Shown one piece after another: positions 2,852 through 26,232 of a stretch of 64,000 nucleotides of DNA. Origin of the DNA: Eggerthella lenta DSM 2243. Lineage in GTDB: Bacteria; Actinomycetota; Coriobacteriia; Coriobacteriales; Eggerthellaceae. The notes under the pieces are model-generated. The model saw only the letters and a program-made list of their open reading frames with translations, was not told the origin of the DNA and ran no database searches. The translations under genes were made by a program, and so were the position numbers. Position 1 is the stretch's first letter, and every line of letters starts with the position of its first letter. The stretch covers positions 1,972,180 to 2,036,179 of the forward strand of contig NC_013204.1 of NCBI RefSeq assembly GCF_000024265.1, given 5' to 3'.

Positions 2852-2880
2852 CCGATATCTCCCGTAATGTTGCGAAAGAA
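2846..2880 (+). repeat. AATGTTGCG repeat, copy B
   Basis: Reads GATGCCCGAT, nine bases, AATGTTGCG. Overlaps the -35 position of the candidate promoter of the neighbouring minus-strand gene. Confidence 0.55.
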
Positions 2881-2965
2881 CGCGCATCGATCGGACATTC
2901 TCCAGCAGTTGCGTTTGCAACCAGGGAAAACGCGCAAAAGCACTCAGGATCGCCCTTCTTCTACC

Positions 2966-3000
2966 CCCGCAACGCAACATTGCAGGAAGAATCGGGCATC
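2966..3000 (-). repeat. AATGTTGCG repeat, copy C
   Basis: Reverse complement reads GATGCCCGATT, CTTCCTGC, AATGTTGCGTT. Closest to copy A, in opposite orientation 1.4 kb away, and also close to copy B. Confidence 0.6.
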
Positions 3001-3096
3001 TGGAACCGCAGCGGGCGACCTGCGCCGCCTAGTCGGCTCAGCGGAGCGTTTCTTACGCCCCGTATGGCCATCGGGCGCACCGGGCATCGCGCAGAA

Positions 3097-3128
3097 CGGC
3101 CCCGCATCGTTCGCTCGATGCGGGGCCG
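3097..3128 (-). terminator. Terminator hairpin after pyrC
   Basis: Perfect 13-bp stem CGGCCCCGCATCG/CGATGCGGGGCCG with a 6-nt loop, starting 30 bases past the pyrC stop. The T-tract is poor, so efficiency is uncertain. Confidence 0.6.
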
Positions 3129-3158
3129 CGTGGTTCGAATATCGTGCAGGGCTCGACC

Positions 3159-4451
3159 CTACTCGATGATGGCGCCGTCCTCCATGGTGGCGTAACCGCC
3201 CACGTAGACGTCGGTGGCGCGGCCGGACAGCTCGACGCCGATGAAGCCCGAGTTCACGGCCTTAGACTGGAAGTCCGCGGCGTCCACCGTCCAGGCGGCG
3301 TCCGGGTCGATGACCGTGAGGTCGGCCGTCGCGCCCGGCTCGAGGGCCACGCGCTCGACGCGCAGGATCTCGCGGGGACGCACGGCCATGAGCTCGACGG
3401 CGCGCTCCCAGCTGATGACGCCCGGCGCCACCAGGTTCGTGATGACGAGCGAAAGCGCCGTCTCTAGGCCGATCATGCCGAAGGGCGCCAGCTCGAACTC
3501 GGCGTTCTTCTCGAAGTCGTTGTGCGGCGCGTGGTCGGTGACGATGGCGTCCACCGTGCCGTCCTTCACGCCTTCCACCAGCGCGGCGGCGTCCTCGGCC
3601 GTGCGCAGCGGCGGGTTCACCTTGAGGAAGGTGTTGTAGTCGTCGCCGATGGCGTCTTCGGTGAGGAACAGGTGGTGCGGCGTGACCTCGCAGGTGACCG
3701 GCAGGCCCTCGGCCTTGGCGGCGCGCACCAGGTCCAGGCCGCGCGCCGTGGTGAGGTGCTGGATGTGCAGCGGGCAGCCGGTGAGGCGGCAGATGGCGAT
3801 GTCGCGGGCGATCTGGATCTCCTCACCTTCGGCCGGCCAGCCCAGCATGCCCAGGCGCGTCGACACGACGCCCTCGTTCACCTGGCCGGCGCCGACGAGG
3901 TCCTCGTCCTGGCAGTGGCTCATCACCACGCGGTCGAACTGCGCGGCGTAGTCCATGACGCGGCGCATCATGCCCGCGCCCTGCACCCCGCGGCCGTCGT
4001 CGGTGAAGGCGACGGCGCCGTGCGCCACCATGTCGCCCATCTCGGACAGCGTGTCGCCCTTGAGCCCTTGCGAGCAGGAGCCGGCCACGTGCACGCGGCA
4101 CTTGCCCACGGCCGCCGCGCGAGCCTTCACGTACTCCACGCCCACGGCGTTGTCGATGACGGGCTTCGTGTTCGGCATGCAGCACACCGCCGTGAAGCCG
4201 CCGTGCGCCGCGGCGCGCGTGCCGGAGGCGATATCCTCCTTCAGCTCGTAGCCGGGCTCGCGCAGATGCACGTGGATGTCCACGAGGCCGGGAACGACGA
4301 TCTTGCCGCCCAGGTCGCGCTCGACGCCCTTCTCCATCGTCAGGTTCTGGCCGATCTCGACGATATTCCCGTCGCGCACGAGGATGTCGGCCGTTTCGTT
4401 CAGACCGACCTGCGGGTCGATCACATGGGCGTTCTTAAGCAGTAAGGCCAT
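3159..4451 (-). CDS. pyrC: Dihydroorotase
   Basis: Cyclises carbamoyl aspartate to dihydroorotate, the third step of UMP synthesis. 430 residues, the usual length of type I dihydroorotases. The zinc HxH pair lies in VDIHVHLREPG (His60, His62), and the late catalytic motif TDHAPH is present. Its ATG lies inside the end of pyrB (17-bp overlap), so the two are translationally coupled. A terminator hairpin follows. Confidence 0.96.
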   Translation of the reverse strand: MALLLKNAHVIDPQVGLNETADILVRDGNIVEIGQNLTMEKGVERDLGGKIVVPGLVDIHVHLREPGYELKEDIASGTRAAAHGGFTAVCCMPNTKPVIDNAVGVEYVKARAAAVGKCRVHVAGSCSQGLKGDTLSEMGDMVAHGAVAFTDDGRGVQGAGMMRRVMDYAAQFDRVVMSHCQDEDLVGAGQVNEGVVSTRLGMLGWPAEGEEIQIARDIAICRLTGCPLHIQHLTTARGLDLVRAAKAEGLPVTCEVTPHHLFLTEDAIGDDYNTFLKVNPPLRTAEDAAALVEGVKDGTVDAIVTDHAPHNDFEKNAEFELAPFGMIGLETALSLVITNLVAPGVISWERAVELMAVRPREILRVERVALEPGATADLTVIDPDAAWTVDAADFQSKAVNSGFIGVELSGRATDVYVGGYATMEDGAIIE

Positions 4452-5379
4452 CTTCGCTCCCTCCGAGCAGCAGGTACATTTCGGCCATGCGGGTCAGGAT
4501 GCCGGCATAGACCTGATCGAGAATGACCGAGCGCTTCGGGTGGTCGGCCATGTAGCTATCCAGTTCGACGCCGCGGTTGATGGGGCCGGGGTGGCAGATG
4601 AGGGCGTCGGGCTTCATGAGGTGCTCGCGGTCCTTCGTGAGGCCGTACAGCATGTTGTACTCGCGCAGCGACGGGTATGGCGCGCCTTCGAGGCGCTCGC
4701 GCTGGATGCGCAGCATGTACACCACGTCGAGGTCGGGCAGCGCCTCGTCCAGCTTCGTGGTCACGTGGTCGGCGCCCAGGATGTCGGGGCGCGCGGGCAG
4801 CAGCGTCGGCGGAGCGACCACCGTCACCTCGCAACCCATGATCTTGAGCGCGGGGATCAGGCTGCCGCACACGCGGGAGTGGCCGATGTCGCCCACGACG
4901 CCCACCTTGAGGCCGTTCAGGTCGCCCTTGACCTCCCAGATGGAGTACAGGTCCAGCAGCGCCTGCGTGGGGTGCTGGTGCTTGCCGTCGCCCGCATCGA
5001 TGACGTGCGCGCCGGAGACGTCGGCGATCTTGCGGGGCACGCCGGCGTGCTTGTCGCGCACGATGATCATGTCGATCTTGTAGGCGCACAGCGTCTCCAC
5101 CGTGTCCACGAGGCTCTCGCCCTTCACCGTGGAGGTGGAGCTGCCGCCGAAGTTCAGGCTGTTGGCGCTCAGGCGCTTCTCGGCGATCTCGAACGAGGAG
5201 CGCGTGCGAGTGGACGGCTCGTTGAACATGTTGACCACGGTGACGCCCTTGAGCGTGGGCACCTGCTTGATGCGGCGCTCGTTGACTTCCTTGAAGCGGA
5301 CCGCCGTTTCCAGAACGGTCATGATGTCGTCGGCGGAGTACTCCGTGATGTCGATTAGATGCTTGTGATTGAAGGCCAT
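4435..5379 (-). CDS. pyrB: Aspartate carbamoyltransferase catalytic chain
   Basis: Joins carbamoyl phosphate and aspartate. 314 residues. The carbamoyl-phosphate loop STRTR is at 56-60, HPTQ at 136-139, then the IGHSR segment and CHPGPINRG near the C-terminus. It starts three bases after the pyrR stop and overlaps pyrC, giving a tight pyrRBC unit under the attenuator upstream of pyrR. No pyrI regulatory chain is present. Confidence 0.96.
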   Translation of the reverse strand: MAFNHKHLIDITEYSADDIMTVLETAVRFKEVNERRIKQVPTLKGVTVVNMFNEPSTRTRSSFEIAEKRLSANSLNFGGSSTSTVKGESLVDTVETLCAYKIDMIIVRDKHAGVPRKIADVSGAHVIDAGDGKHQHPTQALLDLYSIWEVKGDLNGLKVGVVGDIGHSRVCGSLIPALKIMGCEVTVVAPPTLLPARPDILGADHVTTKLDEALPDLDVVYMLRIQRERLEGAPYPSLREYNMLYGLTKDREHLMKPDALICHPGPINRGVELDSYMADHPKRSVILDQVYAGILTRMAEMYLLLGGSEDGLTA

Positions 5380-5382
5380 GCC

Positions 5383-5970
5383 CTATTCACCTCCCAGCGG
5401 TGCCGAACCCGCGCGGGAGCCCGGAGCGATTTCCAGTATCTCGACCTCGGACTTGCCGTCCGCCTCTTCCAAGAACAGGCGCACGTTCTCGTCGGAGGAA
5501 GACGGGACGTTCTTGCCCACGAAGTCGGCGCGGATGGGCAGCTGACGATGGCCGCGATCCACGAGGACGGCCAGCTGCACCGTGGAGGGACGGCCGATAT
5601 CCATGAGCGCGTCGAGCGCGGCGCGGATGGTGCGGCCGGTGTACAGCACGTCGTCGACGAGCACGACGTCCTTGCCGTCGAGGTCGAAGAGGATGTCGGT
5701 GGAATGCACCTCGGGCGAGAGATGCGTCGCGAAGTCGTCGCGATAGAAGCTGATGTCGAGCTTGCCGAGCGGCACCTTCGTGCCCTCGATGGCCTCGATC
5801 TTCTCGGCCAGGCGCTTGGCGAGCAAGTCGCCGCGCGTCACGATGCCGACGAGCGCGATGTTGCCCGCGCCCTTGTTGGTCTCGAGGATCTGATGCGCGA
5901 TGCGCGTCAGCGACCGCTCGATCTCGTCTGCGTCCATGCAGACGGTCTTGACCGTTCCTGCGTCGTTCAT
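5383..5970 (-). CDS. pyrR: Bifunctional pyr operon regulator / uracil phosphoribosyltransferase
   Basis: Family members bind a leader RNA hairpin in the presence of UMP/UTP and so promote termination; most also convert uracil to UMP. 195 residues from the ATG at 5970, which has AAAGGG seven bases upstream; the long in-frame extension above it is the leader. The PRPP-binding motif [12 protein letters not shown] is at about 103-114. It heads pyrRBC and presumably also controls carA, whose leader carries the same element. Confidence 0.94.
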
Positions 5971-6094
5971 ACACACCCTTTCTTGACGTCGAGTGCGTAC
6001 AGACGGACCTGCTCTCCGCCGGGTTCCGCGCCCGCTCCGGCGATGCCGGGCGTCCGCGTCGCCCCCGAGTTGGCGGCGTCTGCGCGAGGGCATG

Positions 6095-6121
6095 AAAAAA
6101 GCCTCCGCGACAGACAAAGGC
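6095..6121 (-). terminator. Attenuator terminator in the pyrR leader
   Basis: Minus-strand stem GCCTTTG/CGGAGGC (7 bp including two G-U pairs, 6101-6121) followed by six T (6095-6100), placed between the PyrR element and the pyrR start. Confidence 0.8.
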
Positions 6122-6164
6122 TTCGACTCGTCGCGCTCTTGTTCGGGTGAGCGCTTGGGGTTCT

Positions 6165-6200
6165 ACCTTGTCGGTCTCTCTGTACCGCTTTTAAAGGACT
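6165..6200 (-). promoter_or_regulatory. PyrR-binding-type leader element of pyrRBC
   Basis: Minus-strand RNA reads AGTCCTTTAAAAGC, then GGTACAGAGAGACCGACAAG. It is nearly identical to the carA leader element and lies at the expected RNA 5' end, just downstream of the promoter. Confidence 0.82.
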
Positions 6201-6206
6201 GGAAGC

Positions 6207-6235
6207 AGTATATTCGGTTCGGAGCCGATTTGTAA
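6207..6235 (-). promoter_or_regulatory. pyrRBC promoter
   Basis: TTACAA (6230-6235), 17-bp spacer, TATACT (6207-6212) on the minus strand. Transcription would begin right at the PyrR element. Confidence 0.7.
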
Positions 6236-6313
6236 CCCCTTTTATGCAGAAACTTGCGAGAATATGTATAAGGCGAGGTCGCGCAAGCGCCAATGCGGCC
6301 GCCTTTCGACGAC

Positions 6314-6346
6314 CGGGCGGGCGAACCTTGCGGCGCCGCCCGCCCG
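6314..6346 (-). terminator. Terminator hairpin after the wall-anchored protein gene
   Basis: Perfect 10-bp inverted repeat CGGGCGGGCG/CGCCCGCCCG with a 13-nt spacer, 14 bases past the stop of the 6361-7083 gene. No clear T-tract. Confidence 0.5.
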
Positions 6347-6360
6347 ACGATGAATATCGG

Positions 6361-7083
6361 TTACTTCGCGAGCTTGCGGCGCAGCGCGAAGACCACGACT
6401 CCGGCGGCGACCAGCATGCCGAAGGAGGCGCCCGCCAGCGCGCCGGCGTCCATGCCGGTCTTGGGCGAGGTCGCGCCCGTATCGGCGCCGGACGGCAACG
6501 CAGCCGACGTATCGGCAGCAGGCTCGTCGGCGGCCGGTTCGTCGACGTCCGCCTTCGAGGGGACGAGCGTCATGACGAAGTCGGCGCTGTAAGAGGCATC
6601 GCCTTCCTGGTCGCCGAGGTTGAACATCTCGGACGTGAAGTTGAAGCTGCTCTGGTCGACGGCCCTCGTCACTTCGAACGTCTTGGCGATGCCGGCGCTT
6701 CCCGCGCTCGGCTTCACGTGCACCTCGAGCTTGTTGCAACCGGCGTACTGGCCGCCCGCGAGAAGCGCCACGCCGAAATCGATCTTCTTGGTCGCGTTCT
6801 CAGCAACGACCCTGAACGACGGCATGCCGTCCAGCGCGTCGTCGGCCGTCTCGCTCGTAGCGATGACGGCGAACGAAGACGCCCTCGTCTCGCCAGAGAG
6901 GACGCACGAGCCGTCTTCGTTCGACGCGCCCTCCTGCCACGGCCCGATCGAGTGGGCCGTGGCCGACTCCTGCGCGGTCGCCTGATCCGCCGTCGCCTGA
7001 TCCGCCTCGTCGGCCCACGCGAGCGCGGGGAGCGTGCACGCGAGCATCGCAGCGCACAAAAGCGCGGCCAGCTTCTTCTTCAT
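6361..7083 (-). CDS. Secreted protein with LPXTG-like (SPKTG) wall-sorting tail
   Basis: 240 residues from the ATG at 7083 (GAGGTG site upstream). The N-terminus MKKKLAALLCAAMLACTLPA is a classic signal peptide, probably cleaved after AWA. The mature part is of unknown function with few cysteines. Next comes an acidic Asp/Glu/Pro/Ala-rich spacer, and the C-terminus is SPKTG, a hydrophobic helix and RRKLAK, the three-part layout of sortase substrates although the first two motif residues are unusual. A class B sortase gene lies 136 bp upstream on the same strand, so it is the likely processing enzyme (inference). Confidence 0.85.
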   Translation of the reverse strand: MKKKLAALLCAAMLACTLPALAWADEADQATADQATAQESATAHSIGPWQEGASNEDGSCVLSGETRASSFAVIATSETADDALDGMPSFRVVAENATKKIDFGVALLAGGQYAGCNKLEVHVKPSAGSAGIAKTFEVTRAVDQSSFNFTSEMFNLGDQEGDASYSADFVMTLVPSKADVDEPAADEPAADTSAALPSGADTGATSPKTGMDAGALAGASFGMLVAAGVVVFALRRKLAK

Positions 7084-15368: not shown

Positions 15369-16424
15369 ATGAGCGAGACAGAGCGCATTCGTCTCACCCG
15401 CCTTACCGAGAAGGGCGGTTGAGCGGCGAAGTGGGGTCCGGGAGACCTCGAAGAGATACTGAAGGACATCGCGCCGCCGCCCGACGCAGATTTGCTGCTG
15501 GGCTTCGACACGTCCGACGACGCCGCCGTCTACCGTCTGAACGACGACACGGCCGCGGTGCTGACGCTCGATTTCTTCACCCCGGTGGTGGACGACCCCT
15601 ACGAGTTCGGCGCCATCGCCGCGGCGAATGCGCTGTCCGACGTGTTCGCCATGGGGGCGAAGCCTCTGACGGCGCTCAACATCCTCGCGTTCCCGTGCAG
15701 CCTGGGCACCGACGTGGTGGCCGACGTGCTGCGCGGCGGCGCCGACAAGGTGCGCGAGGCGGGCGCGTTCGTGGTGGGCGGCCACTCCATCGAGGACGAC
15801 GAGCCGAAGTACGGCCTGTCGGTGTTCGGCACCGTGCACCCCGACTGCATCGTGCGCAACGGCGGCGCACAGCCGGGCGACGCGCTGTTCTACACGAAGG
15901 TCCTCGGCTCGGGGATCATGAACTCGGCGTTCCGGGCCGGCTTCGAAGACGACGAGGGCATGCGCCCCGTCATCGCGTCCATGATGGAGCTCAACAAGGC
16001 GGGCTCCGAGGCGATGGCGGCCGCGCACGTGCACGCCGCCACCGACGTGACGGGCTTCGGGTTGGCCGGGCACCTCCACGAGATGCTGGACGCCTCGGAC
16101 GCGTCGGCCGAGCTCGTCTGGGACGACCTGCCGCTGTTCGAGGGCGTCTACCGGTATTCCTGCGACTTCTGCCGCCCCGCCAAGACGTTCGGCATCATCG
16201 ACTGGGCGCGCGCCTTCGTGAGGCAGGGCGGCCTCGGAGACGAGGAGTTCGAGAACCGCATGGGCGTGCTGTGCGACCCGCAGACGTCCGGCGGCCTGCT
16301 GGTGGCCGTGGCGCCCGACGAGGCCGACGAGTTCGCGCGCGCGTTCGAAGCGGCCGCCGGTCGCGCGCCCGCGCTGATCGGCCATGTTCGCGACGGCGCG
16401 GCGGGCGAGATCAGCATGAAGTAG
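15369..16424 (+). CDS. selD: Selenide, water dikinase; itself a selenoprotein (UGA at 15420-15422)
   Basis: Makes selenophosphate from selenide and ATP, the selenium donor for tRNA-Sec. 351 residues when the UGA is read as Sec18. The N-terminus is MSETERIRLTRLTEKGG-U-AAKWGPGDL, where other SelD proteins have the catalytic Cys/Sec followed by the nucleotide-binding Lys. GFDTSDDAAVY, FFTPVVDDPYEFG and VVGGHSIED are standard SelD segments. Starting after the UGA would remove the catalytic residue. A SECIS-like hairpin lies ten bases past the UGA. A 14-bp hairpin follows the stop. Confidence 0.96.
15420..15449 (+). promoter_or_regulatory. SECIS-like hairpin of selD
   Basis: UGA, a ten-base gap, then stem GGGGTC/GACCTC (15433-15438 and 15444-15449, one G-U pair) with loop CGGGA. 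It differs in loop sequence from the fdnG element. Confidence 0.7.
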
Positions 16425-16456
16425 GGCCGCATCGCCCCGAAGGGGGCGATGCGGCC
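16425..16456 (+). terminator. Hairpin after selD
   Basis: Perfect 14-bp stem GGCCGCATCGCCCC/GGGGCGATGCGGCC with loop GAAG, directly after the selD stop. No T-tract. Confidence 0.6.
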
Positions 16457-16480
16457 GGCGGACGTTGCACGGGAAAGGCT

Positions 16481-16683
16481 ATGTCCTTAACTTATGCGCA
16501 CCTTCGCCATTGAAAACCCCGGGAAAGCGCCATGTTCGCGACTTATGCGCACCTGCCGAGACGTCGAACGGACGAAAGTACGCCTCGGTTAATTTCCGAC
16601 CTGCGTTTTTAAAGCACGTAGCACGCGAAGGCGACGCAAACGGGCGATTCGGCATGGCGGAAGCGCACATAAGTCGAGGACAT
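16481..16683. repeat. Three copies of an ACTTATGYGC motif
   Basis: Copies at 16481-16510 and 16532-16557 (plus) and 16653-16683 (minus orientation) share a start like ATGTCC and ACTTATG[CT]GC. This fills most of the 268-bp gap between selD and the convergent activase gene, which otherwise holds nothing recognisable. Each copy also opens a tiny ORF beginning M-[SF]-x-T-Y, which may be coincidental. Confidence 0.5.
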
Positions 16684-16724
16684 GGGCGAAATGGACCGAT
16701 TCCGCGGCAGAAAGCCGACGCGGC

Positions 16725-17492
16725 TCAACTTCGGCGCCCCTCCCCTTCCGCGGCCAGCAGCGCGGCTCCCACGGCGCCTGCGAAACGCGCGCGGGACTCG
16801 GTGGCCACGGGCTCGCCCAAGCGCGCGCCGAGGCGCTCGACGAAGTACCCGTTGTCGCACAGGCCGCCCGTCAGGAAGTAGGGCGCGCCTTTGCCCTGCG
16901 CGACGAGCACCGACACCCGCTCCACCACCGATTCGATCACGGCGTACGCGATGTCCTCGCGCGGCGTTCCCTTGCCGATGAGGCTGATGACCTCCGATTC
17001 CGCGAACACCGTGCACATGGACGAGATGGACGTGGGCGCGCCCGCCCGCGCGAGGCGCGCGAGCTCCTCCTGGCTGACGCCGAGGCGGTTCGCCATGACC
17101 TCGAGGAACTTCCCCGTGCCGGCCGAGCACTTGTCGTTCATCGCGAACTTGACCACCTTGCCGCCGCGCAGCACGATGACCTTCGTGTCCTGGCCGCCCA
17201 CGTCGACCACGGTGCCCCCGCCGCCGAACAGGAAACCGGCGCCCTTGCCGTGGCAGGTGATCTCGGTGACCACGCGATCCGCATAGGGGACCGCGACGCG
17301 TCCGTAGCCCGTCGCGACGCAGGGAAGCCTGCGCGGGTCGAAGCCGCGCGCGAGCAACTGCTGGGCCAGGCGCTCGGCCGCGTCCACGCTGCTGAACCCC
17401 GTAGGGCACACAAGCGTCTCGGCGAGCCGGCCGTTTTCGAACACCGCCGCCTTCGCGGCCGTGCTTCCTACGTCGATGCCGATCGAGGGCAT
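16725..17492 (-). CDS. ATP-dependent activase of the BadF/HgdC family (YjiL-like)
   Basis: 255 residues, ASKHA ATPase fold. Family members are homodimers holding one [4Fe-4S] cluster that push an electron onto a dehydratase or double-cubane partner at the cost of ATP. The phosphate loops are DVGSTAAKAAV (7-17) and DVGGQDTKV (97-105). The cluster cysteines are Cys122 in NDKCSAGTGKF and Cys160 in SSMCTVFAESE. The natural partner is the 20036-21310 protein, encoded upstream on the same strand. It is the last gene of the minus-strand cluster inside the selenium island. No 2-hydroxyacyl-CoA substrate genes are nearby, so acyl-CoA dehydration is unlikely. Confidence 0.9.
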   Translation of the reverse strand: MPSIGIDVGSTAAKAAVFENGRLAETLVCPTGFSSVDAAERLAQQLLARGFDPRRLPCVATGYGRVAVPYADRVVTEITCHGKGAGFLFGGGGTVVDVGGQDTKVIVLRGGKVVKFAMNDKCSAGTGKFLEVMANRLGVSQEELARLARAGAPTSISSMCTVFAESEVISLIGKGTPREDIAYAVIESVVERVSVLVAQGKGAPYFLTGGLCDNGYFVERLGARLGEPVATESRARFAGAVGAALLAAEGEGRRS

Positions 17493-17532
17493 AGGCTAGG
17501 TCCTTTCATCTTTTCTTGGCGCGGAGGGGTGC

Positions 17533-17772
17533 CTAGTACAATTCCACCTCGTGCACGGCCTCGTATGCCAGGCCGCCGCTCTCGAAGGCGTCCAGCAGCG
17601 CGTCCCGCTCCTCGGCAGGGACGCACCAGGCCAGGCCGCAACCTGCGGAAACCTCGGATGGAATGGGGATCATCCTGCCTGGGAGGCCCGTCTCGCGGGC
17701 GGCGGCCTCGACGGCCATCGCGTCGCTCGTGGACGCGAAGGTCACCACGGCTTTCGGCGTCTTCCTCCGCAC
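17533..17772 (-). CDS. DUF3343 small protein, putative chalcogen carrier
   Basis: 79 residues from a GTG at 17772. The DUF3343 fold is small and carries a conserved cysteine motif; here SAGCGLAWC gives Cys45 and Cys50. It starts three bases after the desulfurase gene and precedes the activase. The family is often found beside yedF, desulfurase and selD, and a role as a persulfide/perselenide carrier has been proposed from that context; the biochemical function is not established. Confidence 0.8.
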   Translation of the reverse strand: MRRKTPKAVVTFASTSDAMAVEAAARETGLPGRMIPIPSEVSAGCGLAWCVPAEERDALLDAFESGGLAYEAVHEVELY

Positions 17773-17775
17773 GGC

Positions 17776-18915
17776 TCAGGCCCCCTCGGCGATGGCGGCC
17801 ACGGCGGCGATGCCGGCGTCCACCTCGTCCTCGGTGTTGAAGCTGCTGAAGCTGAACCGCACGGCGCCCTGGCTCTGCGTGCCCAGCGCCTCGTGCATGA
17901 GCGGCGCACAATGGGCGCCGGCGCGCGTGCAGATGCCGAATTCGGCATTGAGCGCGTCGCCGATCGCCGCGGAGTCCGCATCTCCCACGTTGAGCGCGAC
18001 GATGCCGCAACGCCCCGCGTCGCCGCCCCCGCCCAGCACGCGCACGCCGTCGATGCCGCGCACGCCGCGCTCGAAGCGCTCGGCCAACGCGCGCACCTGC
18101 GCGCCCAGCTCCTCCACGCCGCGCTCCTCGATATAGGCCAGCCCCGCGCTCAAGCCGGCGATGCCGTGGGCGTTCAGCGTGCCCGCCTCCAGGCGCTCGG
18201 GCATGCGCGCGGGATGATGCCGGTCGTAGCTGTGCGTACCCGAACCGCCCACCTTCAGCGGCTCGATCTCCACGCCTTCCGCCACGGCGAGGCCGCCCGT
18301 GCCCTGGGGGCCGTACAGGCTCTTGTGCCCGGTGAACGCCACGACGTCCAGCCCATCGCGCCCCATGTCGATGGGCACGACGCCCGCCGTCTGGGCCGCG
18401 TCCGCCACCAGCAGCGCGCCGCGCTCGCGGCACAGGCGCGCGATGCGGGCGATGTCGTACACGTCGCCGGTGAGGTTGGAAGCATGGGTCACCGCCGCCA
18501 GCCGCGCTCCCGGAAGCGCCGCCTCCAACGCGTCGTAGTCGAGCGCGCCGCGCGCGTCGTGGGGCACCACGACCACCTCGCAACCGCGCTCGTCCGCCAG
18601 ACGGTACAGCGGGCGCAGCACCGAATTGTGCGAGGCGGCCGTGGTCACCAGCTTGTCTCCCGGCCGCGCGAGCCCGGCGATGGCGGTGTTCAGCGCCTCG
18701 GTGGCGTTGCTGGCGAAGGATACGCACGACGGATCGGCCGCACCGAACAGCCGAGCCAGCTGCTGGCGCGCCCGGAACACGGCATAGCCCGCGTCGAGCG
18801 ACGCCTCGTGCACACCGCGGCCCACGCCCCCGAAGCTGTTGACGGCCCGCGCCACCGCCTCGGCCACCTCGGGCGGCTTGACGGCGGTGGTGGCCGCGTT
18901 GTCGAAGTAGATCAT
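17776..18915 (-). CDS. Cysteine desulfurase-like class V aminotransferase
   Basis: 379 residues. PLP enzyme expected to release sulfur or selenium from cysteine/selenocysteine as a protein persulfide/selenide. It opens with YFDNAATT, the PLP lysine is Lys198 in TGHKSLYGPQG, and the catalytic cysteine is Cys336 in RAGAHCAPL. It belongs to the branch of short desulfurases that often lie beside yedF rather than with iron-sulfur scaffold genes. Lying between yedF and DUF3343 suggests that it loads these carriers and ultimately supplies SelD (inference). Confidence 0.9.
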   Translation of the reverse strand: MIYFDNAATTAVKPPEVAEAVARAVNSFGGVGRGVHEASLDAGYAVFRARQQLARLFGAADPSCVSFASNATEALNTAIAGLARPGDKLVTTAASHNSVLRPLYRLADERGCEVVVVPHDARGALDYDALEAALPGARLAAVTHASNLTGDVYDIARIARLCRERGALLVADAAQTAGVVPIDMGRDGLDVVAFTGHKSLYGPQGTGGLAVAEGVEIEPLKVGGSGTHSYDRHHPARMPERLEAGTLNAHGIAGLSAGLAYIEERGVEELGAQVRALAERFERGVRGIDGVRVLGGGGDAGRCGIVALNVGDADSAAIGDALNAEFGICTRAGAHCAPLMHEALGTQSQGAVRFSFSSFNTEDEVDAGIAAVAAIAEGA

Positions 18916-18946
18916 AGCTCCACGATCCTTACGTCTCGGCCCGGCC

Positions 18947-19561
18947 CTACGGGCGGATGATGCCGCGCGCGCTCGCCTGCTTCTCCACGATCACGTACAT
19001 GTTCGTGGCCTCGCCCACTTCCAGCTGCTCGGCCAGCCCGTAATGGTTCAGGCACGTGCCGCAGCTCATGATCTCGACGCCGGCCTCGGCGAGCGTGCGC
19101 AGGTCGTCGAGCGACGAGGAGCCCGTGCAGGCGAGCTTCACGCCGCCGTTGTACATGAGCACCGTCTCCGGCAGCTCGTCGAGCTGCGTCAGGGCGAACA
19201 CGAAGCCCTTCATCAGCACGGCTCCCAGCTCGTCGTCCCCCGAGCCCATGAACTCGGACGGGATCACCGCCACCCGGCCGCCCGTCGGGGCCGGATCGAC
19301 CGCCGGGCAGCTCGCGGCGCTTCCCGCCTGGCCGTCCGACGCCGCCGCGCCCTTCGAGAAGGTCACCGCGAACGCATCTTCGCCGCGCTTCTCGCCGACG
19401 GCTTCCACCTTGAGCGTCTTCGCCAGCGCCTCCAGATTGTGCACCGCGGTCTCGTTGTCAACGAGCACTTCGAGCACGCCCTCCCCCATGGCCGAGAGCG
19501 CCTTCTTGGCGCGCACCACGGGAAGCGGGCACGCCTGACCCCGTGCGTCGATCTGCTCCAT
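18947..19561 (-). CDS. yedF: Selenium metabolism protein YedF (TusA-DsrE-like fusion)
   Basis: 204 residues. The N-terminal TusA-like domain has the sulfur-carrying motif ARGQACPLP (Cys11). The C-terminal DsrE-like domain has SCGTCLNHYG (Cys167, Cys170). Such fusions occur in Sec-encoding genomes next to selD and desulfurases and are thought to relay chalcogens. Ribosome site GAAGGAAG before the ATG. It lies 31 bases before the desulfurase gene. Confidence 0.92.
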   Translation of the reverse strand: MEQIDARGQACPLPVVRAKKALSAMGEGVLEVLVDNETAVHNLEALAKTLKVEAVGEKRGEDAFAVTFSKGAAASDGQAGSAASCPAVDPAPTGGRVAVIPSEFMGSGDDELGAVLMKGFVFALTQLDELPETVLMYNGGVKLACTGSSSLDDLRTLAEAGVEIMSCGTCLNHYGLAEQLEVGEATNMYVIVEKQASARGIIRP

Positions 19562-19587
19562 CGTCTTCCTTCTTTCTCATCGTCGGT

Positions 19588-19677
19588 TGTCATCCCGCAC
19601 GGCGACGGCCGTGGCGCTTCCAGCTGGCGCCTCACGGGATCCTTCGACTCCGCGCTGCGCGCTGCGCTCAGGATGAA
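19588..19677. repeat. GTCATCCTGAGCG repeat, copy 2 (shorter)
   Basis: Begins TGTCATCC, shares GGCGCTTCCAGCTGGCGCC and GGGATCCTTCGACTCCGCGC with copy 1 and ends GCTCAGGATGA. The left arm lacks the TGAGCG...GAAG segment. It sits inside the selenium cluster between yedF and the second DUF3343 gene. Confidence 0.75.
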
Positions 19678-19734
19678 AGCATGCACGGCCTCCGCACCGC
19701 CTGCAGGACGACAGCCTACCGCGGTCGTTCTCCT

Positions 19735-20031
19735 TCAGCAAAATATGTCGCGCCGCGCGTTCAGCTGGCGCGGCAGCCGGGCTACGCCCTCGATCGGGAC
19801 GCCCTCCTCCTGCGCAAGGCGCTCCAGCAGCTCCACGTCGTCGCACGACGCGAGCAACGACACCCCGCAGGAAGCGCGCGCGGCGCGGGGCGTGGGCGAG
19901 ATCCTCGCCTTGGCCCCCGCGTCGCGCGCCAGCTCGTACAGACGCCAGCCGTCGGTATGGCTCGAGAACAGGATATAGCAATCCTCGGGACGTGCGTCCT
20001 TGTTCACGGTATCGGCAGCGTCTTGTTGCAT
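19735..20031 (-). CDS. Second DUF3343 protein
   Basis: 98 residues from the ATG at 20031, directly after the double-cubane gene (four-base gap). It reads ...DCYILFSSHTDGWRLYEL and ARASCGVSLL; the SCGVSL motif (Cys55) is the family hallmark, with a further Cys in ASCDD. It is only distantly like the DUF3343 protein at 17533-17772. A role in chalcogen transfer to or from the reductase is inferred from position only. Confidence 0.8.
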   Translation of the reverse strand: MQQDAADTVNKDARPEDCYILFSSHTDGWRLYELARDAGAKARISPTPRAARASCGVSLLASCDDVELLERLAQEEGVPIEGVARLPRQLNARRDIFC

Positions 20032-20035
20032 GGCC

Positions 20036-21310
20036 TTACGCGTCCAGCATCTCGATGAACGCGCCGATGCGCGTGCGCAGCTGCTCGGCGTCGTTGTCGG
20101 CGTAGTCGGTCTCGAGGCCCAGGCACGGGATGCCCTCCTCGGCAAGCGCGTCCGCCAGCGGCGCCTTTTCCACGTCGTAGAGCGTGCAGAACTTGAGGTT
20201 CGCGTCGATCACGCCGTCGACCTTGTACTCCTTCGCCATGCGCACCACGTCCGCGACGCGACCCGGGTTCGGCGTGAAGCACGCGCAGTTGTTCTTCATA
20301 TAGCGCTGCGCCAACGCCTGGAACATGCCGTCGAGCGTGCCCTCGCCCTCGTCCACCTCGTTCTCGAAGTAGCGCGTGCCCGTGCACATCTCCTCGCACA
20401 CCACCACGGCGCCGCTCGTCTCGACGATATGGTGCAGCTTCCAGTTCGGGATGGCCAGCGGCGTGCCCGTGATCAGGATGCGCTTCGTGCCGGCGGGCAC
20501 CACGCCCTCGCCGCGCTCGATGCGCGCTTCCAGCTCGTCGGCCAGCTTGTTCGCCGTCTCGGCGCAGCGCACCGGGTCGTCGAAGAACGCGATCTGCATC
20601 ATGAGCAGGGCGTCCTTGCCGCTGATGGGCACCGGGTCTGCCTTGCGCGCCTCGAACACGCGGGCCAGCGCGCGACGCTTCTCGTTGATGGTGCGAATGG
20701 CACGGGCAAGGTTCTCGGCCGTCAGTTCGTTGCCCGTCTCGGCCTCCACCTCCTTGGCGAACAGCGCGATCTCGTCTTTCCACGCCGCGATGTCCTTCTC
20801 GCGCTTCATCTGCGGCACGTCCATGACGTAGGTCTTCTTGTCGGCCCCCAGGATCTCGTAGGCCTTCTTCTTGCCGTCGCACGTGGTCTCGCCCACATAC
20901 ATGTCGGCCACGCTGAAGTACGGACACGTCTTGCCGAAGTGCGCGCCGAGCGACGCCTTGATCAGCGGGCAGATGCCGCTGGGCAGCACCTTCTCGCCTT
21001 CGGGCACCCAGAACTGCGAGCCGCCGCACAGCCCCGTGACGGCGCCGCCGCAGGCGACGACCACCTCGTCGGGCACGAACACGCAGAACGTGCCGAACAC
21101 CTTGCCGCCCTGCTTTTGCAGCTCGATGAGCTCCGCGGGGCGCACGCCGTGGATCTCCGACACCACGAAGTCGTAGAACGCCATGTTCTCAGGGCGGTTC
21201 TCCTGCGTGAGGTACGTGTCGCCGAACGCCATCGGCAGCACGGCGCACAGCTGGTCGTGCGTCTCCAGATCCATGCCCAAGTCTTTCCACATTGCCTGAT
21301 AGTCAGCCAT
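20036..21310 (-). CDS. Double-cubane-cluster reductase, 2-hydroxyacyl-CoA dehydratase family (YjiM-like)
   Basis: 424 residues, single chain. Related proteins bind a [8Fe-9S] double-cubane cluster and, with an ATP-driven activase, reduce small molecules; the natural substrate is generally unknown. Cysteines Cys76, Cys87, Cys95, Cys114, Cys129 and Cys144 lie in the N-terminal half (GICPLIKASLG, KTCPYFSVADM) and Cys305, Cys309, Cys342, Cys344 and Cys375 in the C-terminal half (CEEMCTGTR, NNCACF, KFCTLYD). The start at 21310 has GAAGGGGG upstream. The matching activase is at 16725-17492. Position among sel genes suggests reduction of a selenium or sulfur species rather than an acyl-CoA (inference). 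Confidence 0.88.
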   Translation of the reverse strand: MADYQAMWKDLGMDLETHDQLCAVLPMAFGDTYLTQENRPENMAFYDFVVSEIHGVRPAELIELQKQGGKVFGTFCVFVPDEVVVACGGAVTGLCGGSQFWVPEGEKVLPSGICPLIKASLGAHFGKTCPYFSVADMYVGETTCDGKKKAYEILGADKKTYVMDVPQMKREKDIAAWKDEIALFAKEVEAETGNELTAENLARAIRTINEKRRALARVFEARKADPVPISGKDALLMMQIAFFDDPVRCAETANKLADELEARIERGEGVVPAGTKRILITGTPLAIPNWKLHHIVETSGAVVVCEEMCTGTRYFENEVDEGEGTLDGMFQALAQRYMKNNCACFTPNPGRVADVVRMAKEYKVDGVIDANLKFCTLYDVEKAPLADALAEEGIPCLGLETDYADNDAEQLRTRIGAFIEMLDA

Positions 21311-21574
21311 GAAGGCCCCCTTCGATACCAGTCGATAGCAAAGTTGCGATGTTATTCGGTTGTCGTTGCAGAAATGACGGTGCAGCGTCGCCGGATGCGC
21401 GCATGCGCATGCGGGACGCGATGAGGTGCGCGATGATGAAGCGTCGCCTTGCATGCAGAAATGGCACCCGCGCAGAATCGTGCCAATGCGAGGCGACGAG
21501 GTAATGATACCGTATCGCAGCCGCCCGCCGCAATCGCAGGGCAGCTTATCGGCGAAAGGCCGGCGGAAAAGCCC

Positions 21575-22402
21575 CTACCGATCGACGTCCTTCTTCCGGT
21601 ACACGAACCAGTACGCCATGCCGACGGCGACGCCGCCGGCGACGTTGCCCAGCGTGGCGGCCGACAGGTTCGTCGCGATGCCGGCCAGCGTCACCGCGTC
21701 GGGCGCACCCACCCCCATCGAGTTGAGCAACAGCCCCATGGGGAGGAAGAACATGTTCGCCACGCAGTGCTCGAACCCGCACGCAACGAACGCAGAGATG
21801 GGCAGCAGGATGCCGAGCACCTTGTCGGCGACGGTGCGCGCCGAGAACCCGATCCACACGGCCAGGCACACGAGGATGTTGCACATGACGCCCTTGAAGA
21901 ACAGCGTCGTCCAATCGGGCGCCACCTTGCCCGCGGCCACGCTGACGAAGGCCTCGCCCACCGCGCCTCCGTTCATGGCGGCGACGTTCGCAAAGTGGAC
22001 GAGCGCGAGCGCGACGAGCGCGCCGGCGAGGTTGCCGAGCCACACGAGCAGCCAGTTGCCGAACAGGGACCTCCAGCCGATACGGCCCGACGCTTTCGCG
22101 CACACCAGAAGCACGTTGCCGGTGAACAGCTCCGCGCCGCAGCACAGCACGAGCACCAGCCCGAGGCAGAAGCAGAGTCCGCCCACCGCGCGCTGCACCG
22201 CGAACGGCATGGAGGGGTCGCCCAGGAACACGCAGAAGTACAGCGCCCCGAACGCGATGAACGCCCCGGCCAGCATCGCGGACGCGAAGCACTTCGCCTT
22301 CGGCATGGCCGCCTTGGCCTCGCCGACCTTCTCGGCCTTCTCCGCGATTTCAGCCGGCGACAGCGCATCCGGCCTGAGCGTTTGGATCTCGTCCTGCATC
22401 AT
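21575..22402 (-). CDS. Formate/nitrite family channel
   Basis: 275 residues with six hydrophobic segments. FNT pentamers pass formate, nitrite or hydrosulfide. Typical elements are FTGNVLLVCAKASGRI, GNWLLVWLGN and AFVACGFEHCVANMFF (with the central pore His). Start taken as the first of two adjacent ATG codons. It is the first gene of the minus-strand selenium cluster and diverges from selA. Both formate (for fdnGHI) and HS-/HSe- are plausible cargoes; the sequence does not decide. Confidence 0.88.
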   Translation of the reverse strand: MMQDEIQTLRPDALSPAEIAEKAEKVGEAKAAMPKAKCFASAMLAGAFIAFGALYFCVFLGDPSMPFAVQRAVGGLCFCLGLVLVLCCGAELFTGNVLLVCAKASGRIGWRSLFGNWLLVWLGNLAGALVALALVHFANVAAMNGGAVGEAFVSVAAGKVAPDWTTLFFKGVMCNILVCLAVWIGFSARTVADKVLGILLPISAFVACGFEHCVANMFFLPMGLLLNSMGVGAPDAVTLAGIATNLSAATLGNVAGGVAVGMAYWFVYRKKDVDR

Positions 22403-22666: not shown

Positions 22667-24145
22667 ATGGCGAATCCGTCACGCACCGATCTGCTCCGCG
22701 CGCTCCCGCAGGTGGAGGAGATGCTCCAGCTGCCCGAGGTGAGCGCGCTTCTGTCGCTCCTCCCCCGCAGCGTGCTGGCCGATTGCGTGCGCGAGGCCGT
22801 CGACGAGACGCGTCGAGCCGTGCTTGCAGGAGCATGCGAACGGGTCGACGTTCCGGCGCTCGCCGAATCGACGCGCGCCCGGGCGTTCGCCCGGGCGCGC
22901 CCGTCGCTGCGCCGCGTGATCAACGCCACGGGCATCGTCGTGCACACGAACCTCGGGCGCAGCCCGCTTGCCGACGAGGCCGTGAGCGCCGTGAGCGACG
23001 TGGCGCGCGGCTACTCCACGCTGGAGTACGACACCGATGCCATGGCGCGCGGCAGCCGCCACGACCATGTGGAGCGCCTCATCTGCACGCTCACCGGCGC
23101 CGAGGCGGCGCTGGCCGTGAACAACAACGCGGCGGCGGTCATGATGGTGCTCCACGAGTTCGCGCGCGGGCACGAAGCCGTGGTGTCGCGCGGCGAGCTG
23201 GTGGAGATCGGCGGATCGTTCCGCGTGCCCGACATCATGGAGCTGTCGCAGGCGCGCATGGTGGAGGTGGGCACCACGAACAAGACGCATGCCGTCGACT
23301 ACGAGCGCGCCATCGGCGCCGACACCTCGATGCTGTTGAAGGTGCATCCTTCGAACTACCGCGTGGTGGGCTTCGCCGAGAGCGTGTCGGCGCGCGACCT
23401 GCGCCCGCTGGCCGATGCCGAGAACGCACGGCGCACGGCATCCGGCGAGCCGGGCGCGGGCGAGCTTCTGGTGTACGAGGACCAGGGATCGGGCGCCTTC
23501 CTGAACCTCGATGCGTTCGGCGCGTACGCCGAGCCCACCGTGGCCGAGTCGCTGCAGGCGGGCTGCGACCTCGTGTCGTTCTCGGGCGACAAGCTGCTGG
23601 GCGGCCCGCAGGCGGGCATCATCGTGGGAGCGAAACGGTTCATCGACCGGCTGAAGAAGAACCCTTACGCCCGCGCGATGCGCCTCGACAAGATGACGCT
23701 GGCCGCGCTGGAGGCCACGCTGCGCCTCTACCTCGACCCCGCGATCGCGCTCGAGCGCATCCCTGCGCTGCGCATGCTGTCCGAGCCGGCCGAAGCCGTG
23801 CGCGGGCGCGCCGAGCGGCTGGCGCGCACCTTGGAGGAAGCGCTTCCCGCAGGGGCGGCGCGCATCGACGTGGTACCGGATACCGCGCGGGCCGGCGGCG
23901 GCGCGCTGCCGTTGTGCGACATCGACTCGCATGCGGTGCGCATCGAGTTTTCGCGCGGGGACGCGCAGGGGTGCGAGACGTTCCTCATTGCGCGGCGCGA
24001 CGTGCCCGTGATCGGGCGCATCAAGCACGACGCCGTGCTGCTGGACGCGCGCACCGTGGCCGAGGACGAGCTAGCCGAGGTCGCCGAGGCCGTGCGCGCC
24101 TACTTCGACGCGCTCGACGCCGGAGCCGAGGGGAGCCGCGCATGA
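22667..24145 (+). CDS. selA: L-seryl-tRNA(Sec) selenium transferase
   Basis: Converts seryl-tRNA-Sec to selenocysteyl-tRNA-Sec using selenophosphate. 492 residues, normal for bacterial SelA. The PLP lysine is Lys309 in VSFSGDKLLGGPQAG. Other hallmarks are INATGIVVHTNLGRSPL and EVGTTNKTH. GAGAAAGG precedes the ATG. The stop overlaps selB by four bases. Confidence 0.96.
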   Translation: MANPSRTDLLRALPQVEEMLQLPEVSALLSLLPRSVLADCVREAVDETRRAVLAGACERVDVPALAESTRARAFARARPSLRRVINATGIVVHTNLGRSPLADEAVSAVSDVARGYSTLEYDTDAMARGSRHDHVERLICTLTGAEAALAVNNNAAAVMMVLHEFARGHEAVVSRGELVEIGGSFRVPDIMELSQARMVEVGTTNKTHAVDYERAIGADTSMLLKVHPSNYRVVGFAESVSARDLRPLADAENARRTASGEPGAGELLVYEDQGSGAFLNLDAFGAYAEPTVAESLQAGCDLVSFSGDKLLGGPQAGIIVGAKRFIDRLKKNPYARAMRLDKMTLAALEATLRLYLDPAIALERIPALRMLSEPAEAVRGRAERLARTLEEALPAGAARIDVVPDTARAGGGALPLCDIDSHAVRIEFSRGDAQGCETFLIARRDVPVIGRIKHDAVLLDARTVAEDELAEVAEAVRAYFDALDAGAEGSRA

Positions 24146-26073
24146 GCGGGCGCACGCAGACCGACCTCGTGCTGGGCACGGCCGGCCATATCGACCACGG
24201 CAAGTCGTCGCTCGTGCTGGCCTTGACCGGAACCGACCCCGACCGTCTGGCAGAGGAGAAGCAGCGCGGCATCACCATCGAGCTGGGCTTCGCGCGCCTG
24301 GCGCTTCCCGACGGCACCGTGCTCGGCGTGGTGGACGTGCCGGGCCACGAGCGCTTCGTGCGCCAGATGATCGCGGGATCGACGGGCATCGACCTGGCGC
24401 TTCTTTGCATCGCCGCCGACGACGGCATCATGCCGCAGACCGAGGAGCACCTGGCCGTGCTGGAGCTTCTGGGCATACGCACCTGTGTGGTGGCGCTCAC
24501 GAAAACCGACCTCGTGGACGAGGAATGGGCGCTGTTCATGGCCGATGAGGTGCGGGGCCGCCTGGCCGGCACGCCTTTCGCGGATGCCGATATCGTCCCC
24601 GTGTCCAGCCGCACGGGCGCCGGGCTTCCCGAGCTGCAAGAGGCTCTGACACGCGCGGCGCGCACCACGCGGCGCGCGAAGGCGGGCTCGCGCCTGCGCC
24701 TGCCCGTCGACCGCGTGTTCAGCATCAAAGGCGCCGGGACCGTGGTCACGGGCACCCTGTGGAGCGGGTCGGCCCGGATGGGCGACGAGGTGGAGGTGCT
24801 GCCCTCCGGCCTGCGCACGCGCGTGCGCAGCGTGCAGGTGCACGGCGAGCCCGTCGATCGCGCCGACGCCGGGCACCGCGTCGCCCTCAACCTGAACGCC
24901 GTGTCCACCGACGAGGTTCGACCGGGCGATTTCCTGGCCGCGCCCGGTGCGGCGAGCGCCACCGACCGCTTCGACGCCCACCTTGCGTTCCTCGGCGTGC
25001 CAGGCAAGGGCAAGCCGCTCGTCAGCGGCGCGCGCGTGCACGTGGCGCACGGCACGCGCGAGGTCACCGGCCGCGTGCTGCTCATGGACGGACGGCCGTC
25101 GCTCGGCGTCGGCGAGCGCGCCTACGCGCAGATCCGCCTCGACGAGCCGCTGCCCGTAGCATGGCGCGACCGCTTCGTCGTGCGCTCGTACTCGCCCGTG
25201 CACGTCGTCGGCGGCGGCGAGGTGCTGCGCGCCCGCCCCCGCCGCACCACCACGCTGGCACCGGGCGCGCTCGAGCTGCTGGACGCGCTGCGCGAAGGCG
25301 ACGAGGCCGCCGTGGCGCACGCCGCGTTCGCGCTGACCGCCGCGCCCGTAACGGCCGCCGAGCTGGCGACGCTTTCCGGGCTCGAGGAGGACGCGGCCGC
25401 CCGCGAGCTCGAGGCCCTTGCCGCGCACGGCGCTGCGGTGCGCCTCGGCGGCGAGCGCGCGCTGCGCTACGCCGCCCCCTCCGTGCTGCAGAAGCAGCGC
25501 GCCGCCATCGAGAACGCCCTGCTGAAGTTCCATGCCGAGAACCCGGCCGCCACCGGCATCGCGAAGGACGCGCTGCGCCGGCGCTGCCTGCCGCGCGCGG
25601 ACGCGGGCTGCTTCGACGCGCTGCTGGACGACGCGGTCGCGCGCGGCGCCGCGGTGACGGACGGGGGCGAGGTGAGCCATCCCAAAGCCGGAGCAGGCGC
25701 GCGCAAGCTGGAGGAGCAGGCCGCCGAGCAGCTGCGCGAGACGCTGGCCGCCGCAGCCGGGGCGCCGCCGTCCACAGGCGAGCTCATCGCATCGAGCGGC
25801 CTAGACTCCTCGCTCGTCCACCGCGCGCTGGGAAGTCTGGAGAAGCAGGGCCTCGTACGGCGCATCGGAGCCGACTTCTACTTCGACGTATCGGCGCTGG
25901 CCGCCTTCGAGCAAGCCGTGCGCGCCCGTCTGGTTGACGGCCCCGCCACCGCAGCCGAGCTCAAGGACGCGATGGGCACCAGCAGGAAGTACGCCATCCC
26001 CCTGCTCGAGTACTTCGACTCCCAAGCCGTCACTCGCCGCGAAGGCGACACGAGGGTGCCGGGAGGAAGATGA
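24142..26073 (+). CDS. selB: Selenocysteine-specific elongation factor
   Basis: Brings Sec-tRNA to SECIS-bearing UGA codons. 643 residues. The GTPase domain has GHIDHGKSS (15-23), DVPGHERF and LTKTD, and is followed by two beta-barrel domains. The C-terminal region (about 380-643) has repeated winged-helix segments of the SECIS-binding type. ATGA overlap with selA. The two selenoprotein genes in the window give it visible targets. Confidence 0.96.
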   Translation: MSGRTQTDLVLGTAGHIDHGKSSLVLALTGTDPDRLAEEKQRGITIELGFARLALPDGTVLGVVDVPGHERFVRQMIAGSTGIDLALLCIAADDGIMPQTEEHLAVLELLGIRTCVVALTKTDLVDEEWALFMADEVRGRLAGTPFADADIVPVSSRTGAGLPELQEALTRAARTTRRAKAGSRLRLPVDRVFSIKGAGTVVTGTLWSGSARMGDEVEVLPSGLRTRVRSVQVHGEPVDRADAGHRVALNLNAVSTDEVRPGDFLAAPGAASATDRFDAHLAFLGVPGKGKPLVSGARVHVAHGTREVTGRVLLMDGRPSLGVGERAYAQIRLDEPLPVAWRDRFVVRSYSPVHVVGGGEVLRARPRRTTTLAPGALELLDALREGDEAAVAHAAFALTAAPVTAAELATLSGLEEDAAARELEALAAHGAAVRLGGERALRYAAPSVLQKQRAAIENALLKFHAENPAATGIAKDALRRRCLPRADAGCFDALLDDAVARGAAVTDGGEVSHPKAGAGARKLEEQAAEQLRETLAAAAGAPPSTGELIASSGLDSSLVHRALGSLEKQGLVRRIGADFYFDVSALAAFEQAVRARLVDGPATAAELKDAMGTSRKYAIPLLEYFDSQAVTRREGDTRVPGGR

Positions 26074-26135: not shown

Positions 26136-26232
26136 TGGCGGAGATGTGTGCGAATCGAACACACCCGAGACGTTCTGCACGCCTCACAGCGGCTTTGAAG
26201 GCCGTGGAGCCCACCAGGACCCATCCATCTCC
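26136..26232 (-). tRNA. selC: tRNA-Sec (anticodon UCA)
   Basis: 97 nt including an encoded CCA. Acceptor GGAGATG pairs with CATCTCC, the anticodon loop is CTTCAAA (anticodon TCA), the variable arm is a long 7-bp stem GAGGCGT/ACGTCTC, and the T loop is TTCGATT. Size and extra arm are diagnostic of tRNA-Sec. Confidence 0.96.

Follow-up and report, generated by a model that had tools for sequence, protein, structure and literature searches.

We investigated a run of genes in a stretch of Eggerthella lenta DSM 2243 DNA of 64,000 nucleotides (NC_013204.1, 1,972,180-2,036,179; this whole stretch is called the window, and coordinates below are window positions). The run encodes a double-cubane cluster protein (DCCP), an ATP-dependent activase, two small DUF3343 proteins (DUF3343a and DUF3343b), YedF, a cysteine desulfurase and an FNT channel, and it lies between genes for selenium metabolism. 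DCCP and the activase are very probably linked functionally to selenium metabolism. The operon consists of two modules, a core (desulfurase, DUF3343b, YedF and SelD) and an optional module (DCCP, activase and DUF3343a), with modular gain and loss. We tentatively favor the reading that it is a selenium-supply operon in which the optional module may reduce selenium (or sulfur) for SelD by way of its own carrier, DUF3343a. If true, this would give the archetypal double-cubane proteins a physiological function, and would provide a missing step to free or transferable selenide for SelD in anaerobes.

DCCP occurs together with selD

Genomes of three groups were scored for DCCP and selD matches over the cut-off and compared by Fisher tests, whose P values count species as independent though they are related, and take no account of one deletion removing both genes where these are clustered. 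In the phylum of Sporobacter termitidis (G131; 249 genomes, at least 90% completeness requested; hereafter the Bacillota-type sample), DCCP was present in 78 of 168 genomes with selD and in 1 of 81 without it (P = 1.2e-15). The corresponding counts in the phylum of Fretibacterium (G156; 122 genomes), which we take to be Synergistota, were 56/91 and 3/31 (P = 2.7e-7). The window's class, presumably Coriobacteriia, was surveyed in 119 genomes (DCCP over the cut-off in 48, selD in 94) and gave 45/94 versus 3/25 (P = 0.0011), or 45/87 versus 0/19 among the 106 genomes that are at least 90% complete (P = 1.1e-5). Within the genus g15, DCCP was found in all nine members with selD and in none of the four without it; the two genes lie close together there, and one deletion could remove both. 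As a paralogue control in the Bacillota-type sample, the 63 genomes with only sub-cut-off relatives of DCCP, of the 2-hydroxyacyl-CoA dehydratase type, comprised 36 with and 27 without selD, compared with 54 and 53 for genomes with neither (P = 0.43). The initial annotation had placed the DCCP-activase pair in selenium metabolism and had asked whether the pair is equally frequent where selD is lacking; scored through DCCP it is not, and the co-occurrence in three groups, together with the gene neighborhoods described below, bears the assignment out.

Other counts point the same way. Fifty genomes behind the DCCP loci nearest to that of the window were searched (of 80 such loci, 53 are on contigs longer than 24 kb, and the three shortest of these were dropped), and selD exceeds the cut-off in 48. 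In the Bacillota-type sample selA is over the cut-off in 77 of the 79 genomes with DCCP; one of the others (G356) has selD without selA, and one (G332) has neither. Genomes with selD and without selA, by which Sec synthesis might be told apart from SelD, numbered only six in total, one of them with DCCP. In 14 control genomes, DCCP and PF11823 (the DUF3343 model) were each found only in E. coli and Methanocaldococcus jannaschii, and selD was over the cut-off in two.

Several observations weigh against the favored reading. Many genomes with selD are without DCCP (90/168 in the Bacillota-type sample, 35/91 in the phylum of Fretibacterium and 42/87 in the window's class), and SelD therefore does not need DCCP. 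DCCP also occurs without selD over the cut-off, in 1/79 (G332), 3/59 (G419, G444 and G449) and 3/48 (G103, G113 and G117, all less than 90% complete) of the DCCP genomes in these groups, and in 2/50 of the nearest-loci genomes (G159, and G162 with assembly gaps); selD may occasionally be missed, since selA is present in 2 of the 81 Bacillota-type genomes scored as lacking selD (G231 and G343). According to the available part of PMC6262375, YjiM went up and YedF down in C. difficile under metronidazole. Outside the taxonomic order of the window, 25 DCCP stretches contained an activase in 25, a YedF-like match in five, DUF3343 in one and selD in none. In a random sample of 102 DCCP genes, of which 100, in 94 stretches, were scored, 60 had no match to YedF, selA, selB, selD or DUF3343 in their stretch. 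The last two sets of counts favor the alternative of no functional link, in which a gene pair general to anaerobes just happens to lie in a selenium region specific to anaerobes. This alternative was already disfavored and is highly improbable, given the co-occurrence in three groups, the paralogue control in one, the co-loss within genus g15, and the recurrence of adjacency between DCCP and selenium genes in different lineages.

Gene order and the two modules

The run extends along the minus strand from 22402 to 16725 in the order FNT, DCCP, DUF3343a, YedF, desulfurase, DUF3343b, activase, between selD and the divergent selA-selB pair (22667-26073, plus strand):

20036-21310, minus strand: DCCP (YjiM-like), long form, 424 amino acids (aa); NF040772, 486 bits, above the curated cut-off of 350
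16725-17492, minus strand: activase (DCCP reductase/YjiL-like, ATP-dependent), 255 aa; TIGR00241, 230 bits (cut-off 125); PF01869
19735-20031, minus strand: DUF3343a, DCCP-linked putative selenium/sulfur carrier, 98 aa; PF11823, 68 bits (cut-off 25)
18947-19561, minus strand: YedF, 204 aa; TIGR03527, 202 bits (cut-off 110)
17776-18915, minus strand: protein of the cysteine desulfurase/selenocysteine (Sec) lyase family, 379 aa; TIGR01977, 391 bits (cut-off 377)
17533-17772, minus strand: DUF3343b, core putative selenium/sulfur carrier, 79 aa; PF11823, 79 bits (cut-off 25)
15369-16424, plus strand: selD; TIGR00476, 351.6 bits (cut-off 125), the match lying behind an in-frame TGA
22667-24145, plus strand: selA; TIGR00474, 550.5 bits (cut-off 267.9)
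24142-26073, plus strand: selB; TIGR00475, 358 bits (cut-off 242)
26136-26232 by ARAGORN, or 26140-26232 by Rfam (RF01852, 67.8 bits), minus strand: tRNA-Sec
21575-22402, minus strand: FNT channel, FocA-like; Protein Data Bank (PDB) match to FocA, 196 bits

Every gene that had been named in the run was found on the one strand, and the enclosure by selD on one side and by selA, selB and tRNA-Sec on the other is as described. The gaps had been given as mostly below 45 bp, which holds for four of the six: from FNT to the activase they are 264, 4, 173, 31, 3 and 40 bp, so that FNT-DCCP and DUF3343a-YedF are the wide ones. YedF has a TusA-like N-terminal domain (PF01206, 62.9 bits) and a DsrE-like C-terminal part (PF02635, 22.7 bits, at the cut-off). 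The desulfurase falls short of the SclA selenocysteine lyase model NF040779 (295 bits, cut-off 525). Further genera and phyla show the same gene arrangement, which puts it beyond chance.

The two modules are visible when stretches of the window's order are compared. Among 24 stretches with DCCP, activase, YedF, desulfurase and DUF3343 were found in 22 each and SelD in 17; among 12 stretches with selD and without DCCP, the desulfurase was found in 12, DUF3343 in 12, YedF in 11, SelD in 11 and the activase in one (L083). In the window's family, DUF3343a is present in 6/6 members with DCCP compared with 0/3 members that have selD and lack DCCP. Clusters of neighboring genes around DCCP include a LysR cluster in 18 and a YedE cluster in 13 of 174 stretches; a single member of each was scanned, and both were over the cut-off of selenium-named models (LysR: NF040786, 280 bits, cut-off 250; YedE: TIGR04112, 490 bits, cut-off 200). 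UroD-like neighbors of DCCP had been considered as Mlp methyltransferases, a candidate dropped when the single representative scanned proved to be hemE above its cut-off.

A similar set of genes had been tabulated before. Table 1 of Lin et al. 2015 (PMC5322559), in the available part of that paper, lists Shel_25420-25470 of Slackia heliotrinireducens as STRING rows comprising an activase, DUF3343, a Sec lyase family protein, YedF, DUF3343, a 2-hydroxyglutaryl-CoA dehydratase subunit and selD, that is, the same families minus FNT; these are STRING rows only, and the part available gives the dehydratase and the activase no role. A literature search on 2-hydroxyglutaryl-CoA dehydratase with selenium and selD returned only this paper. 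In a 2023 preprint on type 1 mlp clusters (PMC10418091), which share DCCP but have a corrinoid methyltransferase context, DCCP is described as provisionally linked to selenium metabolism; the word DUF3343 occurs in four papers of the literature searched, and this preprint is not one of them.

A DUF3343 subfamily dedicated to DCCP

In the 80 nearest DCCP loci (by title mainly Clostridia, plus Synergistaceae and Coriobacteriia, with some contigs ending nearby), a DUF3343 gene lies directly downstream of DCCP on the same strand in 74. Within 5 kb, an activase is present at 62 loci and a desulfurase at 43; YedF lies no more than 6 kb away at 17 loci, and SelD no more than 8 kb away at seven. The six loci lacking a directly downstream DUF3343 are L095, where a DUF3343-type gene lies further down, L143, at a contig end, L164, L165, L166 and L168. 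At L164 (Gordonibacter pamelaeae 7-10-1-b), gaps of N lie inside the cluster, one opening within the downstream gene, whose first residues look DUF3343a-like by eye; the missing DUF3343, and perhaps the missing selD, are thus attributable to assembly gaps.

A tree was made from 135 DUF3343 domains; the domain is short, and few forks are resolved. On this tree, the label of adjacency to DCCP requires two changes, compared with a mean of 43 after shuffling. DUF3343b, which is not adjacent to DCCP, falls among the other DUF3343 proteins. The DCCP-adjacent proteins thus form nearly a single clade, separate from the DUF3343s that go with the YedF/desulfurase core, and this dedicated subfamily is a new observation: the literature search, which missed most subscription papers, returned no prior account of it or of the fusions of DUF3343 to SelD, FdhD and HydE described below, and the available part of Lin et al. 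2015 (PMC5322559) reports no clear selenium-related DUF3343 branch.

The random sample delimits the subfamily. With window-like DCCPs defined by a score of at least 575 against a profile of ours, a limit chosen after data inspection, DUF3343a is directly downstream in 17/20 window-like DCCPs versus 0/80 others, and a b-type protein in two of those 80. (An earlier count of adjacency in at least 12 of the 102 random genes is superseded by this scoring.) The dedicated carrier is therefore a property of the window's DCCP subfamily and not of all DCCPs.

DUF3343a of the window has a conserved Cys55-Gly56 and ends in Cys98. P48, C55 and G56 are the sole invariant residues across 73 DUF3343a sequences, and the Cys-Gly pair is invariant in both DUF3343 alignments. 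At the nearest loci, 63/80 DCCP-adjacent proteins end in Cys versus 2/55 others (a cruder labelling had given 61/78 for the terminal Cys, and 73/80 for DUF3343 downstream). The idea that DUF3343a is defined by a C-terminal Cys as a swinging arm is nevertheless weakened, to the cost of the favored reading, since in the random sample only 6/17 end in Cys.

Proposed reaction and its alternatives

The window DCCP, a single gene in this genome, matches the solved Carboxydothermus hydrogenoformans DCCP (6eno) across residues 2-422 with 471 bits. Eight cysteines (C76, C95, C114, C129, C144, C309, C342 and C375) are invariant among 18 aligned DCCPs, and all eight face a Cys in 6eno. This full-length likeness, with all eight cysteines and the activase present, makes the window DCCP by sequence a member of the double-cubane family, with an [8Fe-9S] cluster and ATP-driven reduction predicted. 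We take PDB entry 7yyl to be the complex of the C. hydrogenoformans DCCP with its reductase. In the available part of PMC11971306, which names chain 6eno as DCCP, DCCPs are archetypes of the family that reduce acetylene, hydrazine or azide in vitro, and their biological function is still called unknown in 2025. The C. hydrogenoformans protein is thus characterized by in vitro reductions, without a physiological substrate, whereas the window DCCP is linked with selD and has a DUF3343 of its own. For DCCP, this agrees with the statement in the initial annotation that no function had been demonstrated; the combination of genes, however, was already in the table of Lin et al. 2015. In a separate observation, a tandem of two different DCCPs, one of the long and one of the short form, precedes the activase and selD at L042, L044, L047, L049 and L050.

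In the reaction that we propose, the desulfurase or Sec lyase would draw selenium (or sulfur) from Sec or Cys and load small Cys carriers, of which YedF and DUF3343b, the carriers of the core, would hand selenium to SelD. The activase would spend ATP to drive low-potential electrons into the [8Fe-9S] cluster of DCCP. In an encounter with DUF3343a, DCCP would then reduce a selenium (or sulfur) species bound or passed to this carrier, which may be a perselenide, a selenotrisulfide or an Se(0) equivalent, and the product would be reduced selenide for SelD. Taken in full, with DCCP, activase and DUF3343a together reducing selenium in a nitrogenase-like, ATP-driven way and with carrier-held selenium as the natural substrate, this proposal is doubtful. 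Two open questions would meet in it, the biological job of DCCP, which has solved structures and ATP-driven chemistry, and the selenium donor of SelD, whose in vivo selenium form and donor are described as incompletely elucidated in the available part of PMC13188914. The DCCP-specific DUF3343 subfamily and the DUF3343-SelD fusion make both questions testable with few purified proteins.

DCCP could instead act on selenium that is not carrier-bound (as selenite, Se(0), a selenodiglutathione-type or an organic compound), with DUF3343a merely taking the product to the core carriers. The in vitro reduction of small molecules by DCCP reported in the accessible part of PMC11971306, the YedE-type transporter cluster near DCCP in 13/174 stretches with its one scanned member over the TIGR04112 cut-off, and the 81/100 random DCCP genes without DUF3343 directly downstream are consistent with this alternative. 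It is unlikely all the same, for it leaves the dedicated carrier directly downstream of window-type DCCPs (74/80) unexplained.

DUF3343a might also be a regulator that gates the ATP-driven reductase and carries no chalcogen. Small PII proteins gate nitrogenase, and PstA is PII-like. AlphaFold2 predicts a ferredoxin-like fold for DUF3343a (predicted local distance difference test score, pLDDT, 76; predicted template modeling score, pTM, 0.62), with Cys55-Gly56 in a loop ahead of the third strand, and the same order of elements for DUF3343b (pLDDT 92). The first three Foldseek matches of the DUF3343a model are PstA at an expectation value (E) of about 0.01, which would suit such a regulator. These matches are weak and generic for the fold, however: neither the DUF3343a nor the DUF3343b model has a Foldseek match at E <= 0.001, the best being at about 0.01. 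P48, C55 and G56 are moreover the only residues that DUF3343a conserves without exception, and DUF3343 domains of other proteins are joined to SelD and FdhD, all of which makes a PII-like role very unlikely. A DsrC-like fold had been another candidate for DUF3343a; none was among the 50 Foldseek matches listed, and the predicted fold is ferredoxin-like in a generic way.

DUF3343 fusions

DUF3343 is fused to SelD inside a DCCP operon at L253 (genome G356), where the run reads DCCP (1156-2430), DUF3343a (2430-2696), activase (2865-3629), desulfurase (3613-4866), DUF3343-SelD (4869-6167) and YedF (6182-6808). The fusion is an open reading frame (ORF) of 432 aa, in which residues 2-64 match PF11823 and residues 97-401 match SelD (373.8 bits, cut-off 125); this genome has no selA match over the cut-off. 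At L120 (16006-17205), PF11823 (44.8 bits) is fused ahead of FdhD (PF02634, 201.5 bits) in a single ORF. Nine further ORFs of 430-463 aa (L269-L277) have an N-terminal DUF3343, and the three that were scanned are all HydE over the cut-off; a desulfurase adjoins the DUF3343-led ORF in five of the nine stretches (L269, L271, L273, L275 and L277). FdhD is the formate dehydrogenase sulfurtransferase and HydE the H-cluster radical SAM (S-adenosylmethionine) maturase. Judged from these fusions to SelD, FdhD and HydE, DUF3343 probably serves in the delivery of sulfur and selenium in general.

The fusions bear on a sulfur alternative, in which carriers and reductase would provide persulfide or sulfide to maturing metalloenzymes (by way of FdhD for formate dehydrogenase and of HydE for the H-cluster), and the link to selD reflects a shared anaerobic metabolism of Mo/W enzymes and selenoproteins. 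The fusions to FdhD and, in the three scanned ORFs of nine, to HydE favor it, as does the gene for the formate dehydrogenase-N alpha subunit with a Sec insertion sequence (SECIS), which adjoins selD in the window. Three genomes with DUF3343-led ORFs of 430-463 aa (G247, G277 and G377) have no selD over the cut-off, and the ORF of G277 is one of the scanned HydE proteins; a DUF3343-HydE fusion thus occurs in a genome lacking selD, which implies that DUF3343 may carry sulfur and detracts from a selenium-specific role. The sulfur alternative is nonetheless rather improbable in view of the association with selD, which is strong, paralogue-specific, and seen in three groups and within one genus, and of the fusion of DUF3343 to SelD itself.

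Neighboring genes and minor observations

The FNT channel is set furthest apart from the rest of the run and is probably a neighbor and not part of the reductase module. The initial annotation had suggested that HS-/HSe- might be taken up through it. Its best PDB match is FocA (196 bits), compared with 114 bits for 3tdo, which is annotated as a formate/nitrite transporter and which we assume to be the hydrosulfide channel (FNT3/HSC). The protein scores above the cut-off of the Pfam FNT model (231 bits versus 34.6) and below those of the FocA model TIGR04060 (217 bits, cut-off 290.1) and of TIGR00790 (221 bits, cut-off 232.3). FNT stands beside the YedF core irrespective of DCCP (7/24 stretches with DCCP versus 4/12 without it). 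With FocA closer than 3tdo and no tracking of DCCP, a hydrosulfide or selenide channel was set aside as the first choice.

SelD of the window is itself a predicted selenoprotein, the TGA in its reading frame (15420-15422) corresponding to a predicted Sec at residue 18. A SECIS hairpin after this TGA scored no better than in shuffled sequences. In line with this prediction, the selD match of G000 contains one TGA inside; in the window's order some lineages have the TGA and others do not.

A scan for promoters and terminators gave no promoter and two terminator-like sites versus 3.9 expected. Short repeated motifs are visible by eye in the spacers adjoining the activase and yedF (16430-16720 and 19600-19690).

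The E. coli K-12 run yjiM-yjiL-ytiA resembles the optional module in combining DCCP, activase and a PF11823 protein (YtiA), but its DCCP is of the short form and the carrier follows the activase; the features listed for its 23-kb stretch include neither a desulfurase nor YedF nor any sel gene. The same trio of DCCP, yjiL and DUF3343 lies near mdtM on a 37-kb Klebsiella plasmid (L174).

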